Shown piece after piece: positions 1-64,000 of a stretch of 64,000 bases of DNA. The DNA is from Microbacterium binotii. GTDB lineage: Bacteria > Actinomycetota > Actinomycetes > Actinomycetales > Microbacteriaceae. Where the stretch lies: positions 2,542,001-2,606,000 of the forward strand of contig NZ_CP090347.1 in NCBI RefSeq assembly GCF_021398715.1. Direction: 5' to 3'. Position numbers and translations under genes: made by a program. Below the pieces are notes generated by a model. That model was not told the DNA's origin, did not search any database, and saw only the letters and a list, made by a program, of their open reading frames with translations. Positions within the stretch are counted from its first letter, which is position 1. The number at the start of each line of letters is the position of its first letter.

Positions 1-167
1 AGCTGCTGCGGGAAGGCTGCGAGGATGCGACCGGCGAGCGAGATGTCGCGCGTCGCGATCTCGACCCCCGCCTGGCCGGCGACGGCGCGGACGATGGGAA
101 GGAAGGATGCGGTGGCGAGCGCCGGAGCCTCGTCGGTGTGCGTGTAGATGATCGTGGAATCAGGCAC
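1..167 (-). CDS. icd: NADP-dependent isocitrate dehydrogenase, monomeric type (N-terminal part only)
   Basis: Only the first 55 codons lie in the window; the gene runs off the left edge. Isocitrate dehydrogenase oxidatively decarboxylates isocitrate to 2-oxoglutarate, making NADPH in the TCA cycle. The visible N-terminus ([18 protein letters not shown], then [16 protein letters not shown]) matches the start of the large monomeric enzyme typical of Actinobacteria: the T-x-TDEAP segment and the [13 protein letters not shown] segment are family hallmarks. The start is taken as GTG at 167, with a GAGAG ribosome-binding sequence a few bases upstream. A perfect 18-bp palindrome lies 62 bp upstream of this start and recurs before sucC, so joint control of TCA genes is inferred. 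Confidence 0.85.
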
Positions 168-228
168 GGATTTGTCTCTCCATAGAGGCGTCGAGGGTCA
201 GCCGCCAGCCTATCGCACCCGGTCCGAT

Positions 229-246
229 TATCTCGATGTCGAGATA
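229..246. promoter_or_regulatory. Palindromic operator candidate upstream of icd
   Basis: TATCTCGATGTCGAGATA is a perfect dyad of two 8-bp arms around TG. It lies between icd (leftward) and the acetyltransferase gene (rightward). Almost the same site (TCTCGACGTCGAGATA) lies upstream of sucC at 21339-21356. The size and symmetry suit a dimeric MarR-type repressor. Identity of the regulator is inference. Confidence 0.6.
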
Positions 247-347
247 TCTCCCCCTCGCGCGGCCCGGTTCTCACGGCATCCGCATCGCCGGGTTCACACG
301 GCCCGCATCCCTCCCCGCAGGCGGGCGCCAGGCATTAGCCTGTGACC

Positions 348-800
348 ATGACCGAACTGCGCCTCGAAGAGCTGTCGGCCGCGACGATCGTCGCCGTGAA
401 CAACATGTCGCTCAAACCCGGGCAGGAACAGTTCCTCGCCCCTGTCAGCTACGGGGTCGCGGCGACCGTGATCGATCCACGGACCAGCTGGCAGCGCGTC
501 GTCCTCGCGGGCGACGACGTCGTCGGGTTCGTCAGCGCGAACTTCGACGAGCACGAGACGCAGGAGTGGTTCCGCTCCGTCCTGTGGCGCATCAACGTCG
601 ACGCCGACGATCAGGGCCAGGGGATCGGACGCTTCGCGATCAAAGGTCTCATGAACGAGGCGCGCGAGCGCGGCATGGATCACGTCGACGTCATCTATGA
701 GGCAGGCGAGGGCGGCCCCGAGGCGTTCTTCCGCCGCGTCGGCTTCGAGCCCGTCGGCGAGACCGAGTTCGGCGAGGTCGTCGCCCGCATCGCGCTCTGA
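348..800 (+). CDS. GNAT-family N-acetyltransferase (spermidine/diamine acetyltransferase-like)
   Basis: Predicted cytoplasmic acetyltransferase of about 150 residues, transferring acetyl from acetyl-CoA to an amine. The acetyl-CoA binding signature is visible near residue 85 (DDQGQGIGRFAIKGLM, the Q-x-x-G-x-G loop), followed by a typical C-terminal FFRRVGFEPVGE strand. The N-terminal half resembles the BltD/PaiA polyamine acetyltransferases (LKPGQEQF motif), so a polyamine is a plausible substrate, but this is inference. The start is set at ATG 348 because TAGCCT at 336-341 is a -10 box six bases upstream, implying a leaderless mRNA; an in-frame GTG at 342 is the alternative. It diverges from icd. 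Confidence 0.8.
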   Translation: MTELRLEELSAATIVAVNNMSLKPGQEQFLAPVSYGVAATVIDPRTSWQRVVLAGDDVVGFVSANFDEHETQEWFRSVLWRINVDADDQGQGIGRFAIKGLMNEARERGMDHVDVIYEAGEGGPEAFFRRVGFEPVGETEFGEVVARIAL

Positions 801-62281: not shown

Positions 62282-62515
62282 TCAGCCCTCGCCGACGGCC
62301 GCGCGTCTGCGGAAGACGGCCGCCGCGCACACGAACGCGGCGACAGCCGCGATCACGATGCCGCCGGCCGCGACGACCGCCGCCGCCCCCAGCAGCGGAT
62401 TGTCTGCGAGAAAGGCCGATACGGCGATGAACACCGCGCTCGGCACCAACATGCAGGCCAAAACCCCGGCCGTGATCACGACCACAGGGTTGATTCGTCC
62501 CCACTCGATCCCCAT
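62282..62515 (-). CDS. Small membrane protein, unknown function
   Basis: A 77-residue protein with two hydrophobic segments (about 9-34 and 42-66) and a basic C-terminal FRRRAAVGEG. I do not recognise a family. ATG 62515 has TAGGTT seven bases upstream, so a leaderless start like its neighbours supports it being real. It lies downstream of the DUF4190-like gene on the same strand. Confidence 0.65.
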   Translation of the reverse strand: MGIEWGRINPVVVITAGVLACMLVPSAVFIAVSAFLADNPLLGAAAVVAAGGIVIAAVAAFVCAAAVFRRRAAVGEG

Positions 62516-62569
62516 GTCTGCGAACCTATCAAGCCCGTCGGGACCGAGAGCGTGCTCGCGGGGTGAGAA

Positions 62570-63148
62570 TCAGCCGATCCACCCCGATTGGATGCCGGCG
62601 TACATGAGCCATCCCGCGCTGTAGACCAACGAGAGGGCACCGAGCGCGACACCCCACGCCGCGATCGGGCGGCTTTCCACGCGCCCGCGCAGGGACATGA
62701 CCCCGAGCGTGACGGCGCCGACGCCGATCGGGAAGCCCCAACCAACCACGATGGCGACGATGAGGGCGACCACCGCGAAGCCGAGGGAGAGCGTCGCGAA
62801 GTTCGCGGGCGACGCGGCATCCGTCGTCCGCAGGGTCGCGGTCGTCGCCGGAAGCTCCTCGTGCTGGGCGAGCTGCTCCCGCACGTCCACGGGCGCCGTC
62901 GGCGGGCGGGTGAAGCCGCCGCGGTGTGTGCCCGGGAGGTCGGCGGCCTGCGTCGGAACGATGACGTCGTCCGAGGCAGACTCGACCCGGGCGACGACCG
63001 GCCGCGGCTCGACGACCGGCTCCTGCGGCGAGGGGTCCAGCGCCGCGGCGGCGGCCAGCAGCGGCTGAGCGGCCGCGTCGTCCGGCCCGAACGCCGACGA
63101 CAGCGCCCCCGGCTCCTCCGGTGCGTCCTTCCCGTGTTCGCGGTTCAC
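62570..63148 (-). CDS. DUF4190-like membrane protein
   Basis: A 192-residue protein. The first 115 residues are hydrophilic and proline/alanine-rich, probably disordered and cytoplasmic. The C-terminal part has two or three membrane segments in a DUF4190-like arrangement: [40 protein letters not shown], and [21 protein letters not shown]. Function unknown. The GTG start at 63148 overlaps the tsaD stop by four bases (GTGA), so it is translationally coupled to tsaD. Confidence 0.7.
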
Positions 63149-64000
63149 CGCTGCTCCGCCACCTGGATCTCGGTGACCGGCAGCGTGGAGTCCGCGCCGA
63201 AGCGGAGCGTCGACGGCGCGCGACCGGCGGAGATGAGCTCCGCAGCCAACGCCGCGATCATCGCTCCGTTGTCGGTGCACAGGCTCAGCGGCGGGATGCG
63301 GACGGCGACGCCGGCCGCCGTGCCGCGCTCCAGAGCCACGTCGCGCAACCGGCGGTTGGCGATCACGCCGCCGCCCAGCAGCAGTCGCGGCACGCCGTGG
63401 CGCTCGCACGCATCCAGCGCCTTCGTCACGAGCACGTCGACGACCGCCTCACGGAAGGATGCGGCGACGTCGGGCACGGCGGCGTCCGGCGTCTGCTCGA
63501 GGTAACGCGCGACAGCCGTCTTCAGCCCTGAGAAGGAGAAGTCGTAGCGGTGCTCGGCCATGTCGGAAGCCCGAGAGAGCCCACGCGGGAAACGGATGGC
63601 GGTCGGGTCTCCCTCGGCGGCGGCGCGGTCGATCTGCGGGCCCCCCGGGTAGGGCAGACCCAGAATGCGGGCGACCTTGTCGAACGCCTCCCCCGCCGCG
63701 TCGTCGACCGTCTCGCCGAGCAGCTCCACATCGCTCGTGAGGTCGCGCACGAGCAGGAGGGAGGTGTGCCCGCCGCTGACGAGCAGCGCCACCGTCGGGT
63801 ACTCCAGGGGCTCCGCATCCGCGTCGAGGATGTCGGCCGCGATGTGGCCGACGAGGTGGTTCACGGCGTAGAGCGGCTTGCCCAGCCCCACGGCGAGCGC
63901 CTTCGCGGCCCCCACGCCCACCATGAGCGCGCCGGCGAGTCCCGGCCCCGAGGTGACGGCGACCGCATCCAGGTCGTGGAGGCCGACTCCGGCCTCGGCG
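63145..64000 (-). CDS. tsaD: tRNA N6-threonylcarbamoyladenosine transferase TsaD (C-terminal part)
   Basis: The gene runs off the right edge; about 285 codons are visible. TsaD attaches threonylcarbamoyl to A37 of tRNAs reading ANN codons. Hallmarks: [15 protein letters not shown], metal-binding HLVGH ([14 protein letters not shown]), [34 protein letters not shown], and the C-terminal [13 protein letters not shown] with [10 protein letters not shown]. In-frame coding continues without a stop to the window edge upstream of ATG 63924, so that ATG is internal. It is cotranscribed with the DUF4190-like gene and lies just upstream of groES in the mycobacterial manner. Confidence 0.95.

Follow-up and report, generated by a model that had tools for sequence, protein, structure and literature searches.

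The octamer GGATGCGG (read on the opposite strand as CCGCATCC) is over-represented throughout a 64,000-nucleotide stretch of the Microbacterium binotii genome (contig NZ_CP090347.1, positions 2,542,001 to 2,606,000; from here on, the window) and is one dialect of a set of related words found across the family Microbacteriaceae. Because compositional artefacts were excluded and dialects run through the family, a self tag resembling a DNA uptake sequence (DUS) is the best reading of the data, and we give about an even chance to the proposal that M. binotii uses GGATGCGG as its own dialect of a Microbacteriaceae-wide repeat that may work like a DUS.

The preliminary description of the window had reported, from inspection by eye, 10 copies of GGATGCGG and nine of CCGCATCC in the first 10 kb, and a recount gave the same numbers. 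The whole window held 113 exact copies, against a mean of 7.88 (standard deviation, 2.56; maximum, 14) in 100 dinucleotide shuffles, and GGATGCGG ranked first among all 8-mers (113 versus 7.4 under a second-order Markov model). The complete genome (3,290,652 bases) contained 4,129 copies, ca. 1.25 per kb, with similar numbers in both orientations (2,096 forward and 2,033 reverse), as had been described; the reversed word, used as a control, occurred 180 times (97 plus 83). When 20 more stretches of 20 kb each were sampled from the same genome, the octamer was again first among 8-mers, with 456 copies versus 43.2 or 99.5 expected from Markov models of order 2 or 4, respectively. For the analysis of individual sites, these stretches and the window were combined, giving 464 kb with 458 genes (from a simple gene caller) and 569 octamer copies.

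Genes contained 478 of these copies (1.19 per kb) and intergenic DNA the other 91 (1.45 per kb). The two commonest coding contexts were those pointed out at the outset, Asp-Ala written as GAT-GCG (xDA, 207 of 478) and Ala-Ser written as GCA-TCC (xAS, 139 of 478), and the remaining four frame and strand classes were occupied as well (86, 32, 9, and 5 copies). The frequency of these two contexts is what would be expected of a compositional artefact, i.e., a codon-pair, dinucleotide, or oligomer bias, and a codon-pair effect had been offered as an alternative. However, the coding count was far above that obtained by synonymous shuffling (84.8, with a maximum of 103 in 50 runs) or from a codon-pair Markov model (127.6, with a maximum of 144 in 30 runs), and both effects were rejected. 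The octamer was, besides, equally frequent in intergenic DNA, where it was also the top 8-mer (91 versus 7.4 expected). Since the excess survives all of these controls, together with the shuffles and both Markov orders, a compositional origin is refuted, with next to no probability left to it, and the over-representation is confirmed as real. Density was lowest in the most codon-typical fifth of genes (0.73 per kb, versus 1.37 in the least typical fifth), which suggests that the octamer has a cost in well-optimized genes.

To place the octamer among relatives, we surveyed 299 Microbacteriaceae genomes from 85 genera, referred to here by survey identifiers (G for genomes, g for genera, and L for loci). 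Dialect labels come mostly from samples of ca. 20 kb, with 80 named loci. The word GGATCCG was counted in 249 genomes, which were compared among themselves because its reversal contains CCTAGG and is misleading as a control. The highest number of GGATGCGG was found in the M. binotii genome itself, followed by G118 with 2,360. The commoner word family-wide was GGATGCCG, reaching 4,831 copies in G258, 4,491 in G106, 4,128 in G142, and 4,009 in G212 (controls, 159 to 300), the first two of which belong to Microbacterium. Another member of this genus, G164, had few copies of either word (299 GGATGCGG and 485 GGATGCCG) yet 6,303 of GGATCCG, which was present 5,503 to 6,237 times in four sampled genomes of genus g35. 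Word counts made de novo gave CGGATCC in 138 kb of G164 (216 versus 60.1 expected) and AGGAGGCG, of a GGAGGCG dialect, in 60 kb of G110 (62 versus 5.1), and one 22-kb locus of M. mitrae was rich in CGGAACCA, of a GGAACC dialect (24 versus 1.4). Among named loci, GGATGCCG was favored in many, including those of M. proteolyticum, M. testaceum, and M. enclense, and GGATCCG in those of M. excoecariae, M. nanhaiense, and Microbacterium sp. ASV81. All the dialect words (GGATGCCG, GGATGCGG, GGATCCG, GGAACC, and GGAGGCG) share GGA, and relatives hold related words in numbers similar to those of M. binotii.

Two genomes are worth describing separately. G151 (1.9 Mb, genus g6) contained 2,871 GGATCCG versus 117 to 465 in its congeners G005, G088, G202, and G247, a within-genus switch, and G126 carried two abundant words, GGATGCCG (3,363) and GGATCCG (4,111). 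Most samples of Agromyces, Curtobacterium, Aurantimicrobium, and Pontimonas showed none of the words at the cut-off, a label that can overlook a weaker signal in 20 kb, as in G226 and G280, whose loci were labeled none and whose genomes hold 1,306 and 2,889 copies of GGATGCCG. Outside the family, GGATGCCG, the word counted in 139 genomes, was found at about 1 to 4 times its control, and family f4 gave the largest ratios (G363, 8.0; G415, 5.5; G334, 4.6 times control). One genome of genus g5 favored GCAGGAGC (37 versus 4.4) and CAGGATCC (23 versus 1.8), which could not be placed among the dialects.

The dialects also followed the relatedness of the competence protein ComEC. From 108 loci we built a tree of 105 rows (103 different), which is a gene tree of this protein and not a species tree; L067 and L092 (second copies of kept rows) and L170 (on a contig titled Myxococcaceae) were left out, and L087, L089, L075, and L076 were labeled from larger samples. 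Dialect labels required 21 changes on this tree versus 41.8 when shuffled (0 of 200 shuffles as low). M. binotii fell inside a Microbacterium clade of 21 rows (support, 98) containing 18 GGATGCCG rows and two unlabeled ones, apart from the g21 genomes that also use GGATGCGG; the loci closest to its ComEC were likewise those of Microbacterium. Individual sites were seldom shared between congeners at ca. 75% identity: in gap-free alignments M. binotii and G106 had 1 of 17 in common. Sharing was greater between G106 and G258, whose word is the same (7 of 29 and 7 of 18). Among 10 Microbacterium loci at 84.5% identity (90 ordered pairs), 1,995 of 2,980 GGATGCC sites (67%) were identical, versus 40.1% for pooled permuted words. 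Judged from these alignments, GGATGCC sites are kept between such loci.

The arrangement of neighboring copies resembles that of known uptake sequences. Close pairs (gap of up to 40 bp) were inverted in 25 of 34 cases (P = 0.009), including 12 of 12 intergenic pairs (two-sided P = 0.0005) and 13 of 22 located in genes. The four hairpins that had been singled out in the window all contain an inverted GGATGC/GCATCC pair (Table 1), and two of them had predicted folding energies of −41 and −42.5 kcal/mol, equaled by 0 of 200 shuffles in each case. The proposed link to terminators held only partly; intergenic pairs are consistently inverted, but enrichment at convergent gene ends was weak, with densities of 2.16 per kb in convergent gaps (21 sites), 1.54 in divergent gaps (24), and 1.43 in codirectional gaps (46).

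As to its shape, the exact word was raised 11.2-fold over expectation, the pooled one-mismatch words 1.29-fold, and the two-mismatch words 0.98-fold. The near-words raised most clearly were GGATGCCG (192 versus 59.5), GGATGTGG (52 versus 15.3), GGATGAGG (58 versus 24.8), and GGGTGCGG (88 versus 50.1). Copies were randomly spaced (coefficient of variation, 1.03), and density was uneven, the 21 stretches of the M. binotii genome ranging between 0.1 and 2.35 per kb, with the maximum in the sampled stretch closest to the end of the contig. No replication-strand bias was seen in these stretches (292 leading versus 277 lagging copies by the sign of the GC skew, P = 0.56), and a polar signal of the Chi type or that of FtsK-orienting polar sequences (KOPS), already doubted in the preliminary description, was rejected. 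These features bear on another explanation, a binding site for a nucleoid or chromosome-organizing protein whose changes the dialects would track. It would fit the genome-wide spread and random spacing and would not require competence; the uneven density and the lack of strand bias count against it, and we consider it rather improbable.

A different origin is suggested by the highly iterated palindrome HIP1 of cyanobacteria, namely that the word is made and kept by a repair process linked to a methyltransferase. Like the octamer, HIP1 is an 8-bp high-frequency word replaced by another in some lineages, and GGATCC resembles the alternate GC-rich palindromes that replace it in some cyanobacteria (Elhai 2015, PMC4390886). 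Three Pfam families of methyltransferases (PF01555, PF00145, and PF02384) were searched in 33 motif-rich genomes picked by hand from a larger number, M. binotii and 32 others with at least 2,000 copies of GGATGCCG. A CcrM/RsrI-like enzyme (PF01555) was present in 33 of 33, which first seemed decisive, whereas PF00145 (19 of 33) and PF02384 (21 of 33) were both missing from M. binotii. The link was ruled out by an ortholog search over the 299 genomes, which gave matches with E values below 1e-90 in 266, weaker ones in 24, and none in nine (ca. 67 to 79% identity among the matches listed). On the one hand, the enzyme was found at E values below 1e-90 in genomes poor in GGATGC words (G004, G110, and G221, with GGATGCCG at 1.8 to 2.3 times control) and also occurred in genomes with other words (G164 and G110). 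On the other, it was absent or weak in the motif-rich G161 (1,770 GGATGCGG), G211 (1,681), G220 (1,982 GGATGCCG), and G281 (1,401), as well as in G151 with its 2,871 GGATCCG. Being neither necessary nor sufficient, this enzyme does not set the motif, and the suggestion of a methylation site fails for the only methyltransferase of the three families common to all 33 genomes. Moreover, HIPs are palindromes with cognate methyltransferases, while GGATGCGG and GGATGCCG are not palindromes, although the core of GGATCCG is, and among single deviations from the octamer those at positions 6 and 7 showed the strongest rise, unlike in HIP1, where they are reported to be raised at the two ends (PMC4390886). 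A HIP1-like process appears quite improbable.

The machinery that a DUS would need is present. ComEC was found in 293 of the 299 genomes and TadA in 297, and comEA accompanied every comEC region examined; the M. binotii genome has comEA, comEC, and two Tad-type loci, one of which includes a TadE-like gene and a small gene of the DUF4244 type adjoining topA (named from its translation). The two competence genes were adjacent in most regions examined and lay ca. 5 kb apart in G106 (L088, 9275 to 14568). In Micrococcus luteus, transformation requires the Flp/tad pilus system (PMC4322843); a term search of that paper did not find the phrase "uptake sequence." Natural transformation has been demonstrated in two genera of the Microbacteriaceae, Rhodoluna and Aurantimicrobium (PMC11577799).

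If the octamer works like a DUS, a reader at the cell surface or on a pilus would bind the word during natural transformation, and DNA from the same or a close species would thereby enter and recombine more often. Copies born by mutation would then spread through the uptake bias, despite a certain penalty in codon choice, and a change in the reader would shift the dialect. The likeness to a DUS drawn in the preliminary description stands as far as it concerns thousands of copies on both strands, in genes and gaps, with inverted intergenic pairs and dialects.

Several results weigh against uptake. Competence genes are near universal, in genomes rich in the motif as well as in those poor in it, so that the presence of ComEC and TadA, like that of comEA, comEC, and Tad loci in M. 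binotii, is uninformative as a predictor. No column of the ComEA alignment splits species with GGATCCG (five rows) from those with GGATGCCG (18 rows), and ComEA residues were dropped as a candidate reader of the dialects. The transformable genera Rhodoluna and Aurantimicrobium have small genomes (PMC11577799), and the motif was not seen in the one Aurantimicrobium locus sampled (L144). Four Microbacterium loci (L117, L130, L131, and L138) contained none of the words at the cut-off. The excess in convergent gaps is small, the weak rise of near-cognate words speaks against gradual drive, and the flanks have almost no consensus (a mild excess of C just 5′, 53%). As for the conservation of sites, three of 192 control words were held at least as well as GGATGCC. 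Finally, foreign or foreign-looking DNA gave a mixed picture: foreign-looking genes as a group were not depleted (1.23 per kb in the 5% of genes that were most atypical), and four Microbacterium phages of ca. 17 kb carried 19 to 24 GGATGCC versus 3.6 to 3.7 expected (5 to 7 times). These phage copies suggest that some phages are within reach of the process or advantage involved, which uptake alone does not predict.

Phages differed among themselves. The sample was small and picked by hand, eight phages in all: Min1 and seven from two terminase searches. The four small ones also had 13 to 16 GGATGCCG versus 1.7 to 1.8. In three M. foliorum phages of ca. 42 kb, GGATGCC was at about twice the expectation, with 7 to 12 GGATGCCG versus 3.5 to 3.6 and 5 to 10 GGATGCGG versus 2.4 to 2.6, and phage Min1 had no clear excess (GGATGCC, 16 versus 12.8; GGATGCCG, 5 versus 5.4; GGATGCGG, 3 versus 4.9). 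Host plasmids were sought as a further foreign-DNA control, and no Microbacterium plasmid was among the records listed (20 of 63 and 40 of at least 5,000). In the M. binotii genome, the stretch from 676001 to 696000 (L005), the one low-GC stretch behind the foreign-DNA test, had a GC content of 0.625, only two octamer copies in 20 kb, and an Lsr2-like gene; of six reading frames scanned, one was Lsr2-like, one was of an unknown phage type, and four had no match. It is probably an island.

The host-like density in the four small phages and the failure of every competence gene tested to discriminate would both fit a self mark read inside the cell, either a Chi-like switch that makes a helicase-nuclease repair DNA instead of degrading it or a label by which DNA escapes some other self/non-self system. 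Chi sites are short, G rich, over-represented, strand skewed, and variable between species. The octamer, G rich and with species-specific variants, is like them in all but the skew, whose absence (no leading-strand excess) argues against such a switch, as does GGATCCG, directionless by virtue of its palindromic core and symmetric C/G flanks. We regard an intracellular mark of this kind as unlikely, and the same holds for the notion that the copies persist by virtue of protecting or repairing self DNA.

Returning to uptake, the closest parallel is the DUS of the Neisseriaceae, for which Frye et al. (2013, PMC3630211) reported eight dialects that share an invariant CTG core; a single genome had two dialects, and five genomes had none. 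In both systems a genome carries thousands of copies, the family has several related words with an invariant short core, the dialects follow phylogeny, one genome has two of them (here G126), and some have none. Ours differs in being from Gram-positive Actinomycetota, in its length of 7 to 8 bp, and in its nearly featureless flanks. The Neisseria receptor is ComP; our comparison of candidate readers covered ComEA alone, with no separating column. The uptake signal sequences (USS) of the Pasteurellaceae are likewise short and dispersed, form inverted intergenic pairs, and, like those of Neisseria, have no general orientation bias (PMC2346458); they also come in two dialects within one family, but have an extended form (eUSS; PMC12616744), whereas here there is almost no flanking signal. 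The consensus of the repetitive extragenic palindromic (REP) elements of Escherichia coli contains GGATGCGG (PMC12306157), and the eight shared letters are taken as coincidence; REPs are longer and extragenic, unlike the octamer with its 478 of 569 sampled copies in genes and 91 intergenic. The octamer is written in 825 papers of open-licence PubMed Central; two further hits dealt with E. coli word statistics and with a probe sequence given in a Clavibacter review. In the same collection, we found no report of a DUS in Microbacterium, or of uptake sequences together with natural competence in Actinomycetota, and among the papers listed by broader searches none resembled this motif; an earlier report elsewhere is possible.

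Table 1. Coordinates of the features described (window positions unless a locus or genome is given)
Feature	Position	Strand or context	Remarks
Octamer GGATGCGG/CCGCATCC	105..63970	both strands	113 exact copies, genes and gaps
Inverted octamer pair, strong hairpin	5793..5825	between convergent genes 4821-5792 (+) and 5828-7639 (−)	−41 kcal/mol, z −7.6
Inverted GCATCC...GGATGC pair, hexamers only	18599..18666	between convergent genes 17133-18581 (+) and 18681-19121 (−)	
Inverted octamer pair, long hairpin arms	19149..19194	gap of genes 18681-19121 (−) and 19203-20105 (−)	−42.5 kcal/mol, z −5.7
Inverted GGATGC/GCATCC pair with a full octamer as one arm	57888..57921	between convergent genes 56926-57852 (+) and 58137-59450 (−)	
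Inverted octamer pair, 9-bp gap	23756..23780	intergenic	z −2.2; 9/200 shuffles fold equally well
Inverted octamer pair, 7-bp gap	53313..53335	intergenic	z −2.3; 7/200 shuffles fold equally well
Outward-facing octamer pair, 14-bp gap	1315..1344	intergenic	
Outward-facing octamer pair, 27-bp gap	29634..29676	intergenic	
Second repeat (TGCAGGAGTTCGG pairs)	window 50865-50926; L016 10365-11830; L017 4073-13100		
CcrM/RsrI-like DNA methyltransferase	L216:4879-5760 = M. binotii genome 2883879-2884757	(−)	
17-kb Microbacterium phages rich in GGATGCC	L214, L235, L236, L237		Efeko, Noelani, Snuffles, Bintii

A second intergenic repeat, similar to REPs or to a small mobile element, was noticed in the same DNA. 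It consists of facing copies of TGCAGGAGTTCGG separated by ca. 45 bp, with a variable core between them, and there are several per stretch (Table 1); TGCAGGAGT occurs 32 times in the 464 kb, part of them inside genes.

Should uptake prove to be the wrong explanation, a word that has dialects and exceeds one copy per kb would still need a maker and a reader, and none was found described in the literature searched. Whether such a self tag exists in a family other than the two with established tags of this type seems to us evenly balanced. Slightly short of that, and so put forward tentatively, is the broader proposal that Actinomycetota came by a family-wide code for self DNA on their own, separately from Neisseriaceae and Pasteurellaceae, and that this code has five dialects or more (GGATGCCG, GGATGCGG, GGATCCG, GGAACC, and GGAGGCG) and a putative uptake receptor, with some small phages carrying the dialect of the host. 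If true, a third family with dialects, and a Gram-positive one, would mean that a code of this kind arose once more, in cells lacking an outer membrane. The several dialect switches would help to locate the reader, and the word itself would provide a practical handle for transforming Microbacterium.

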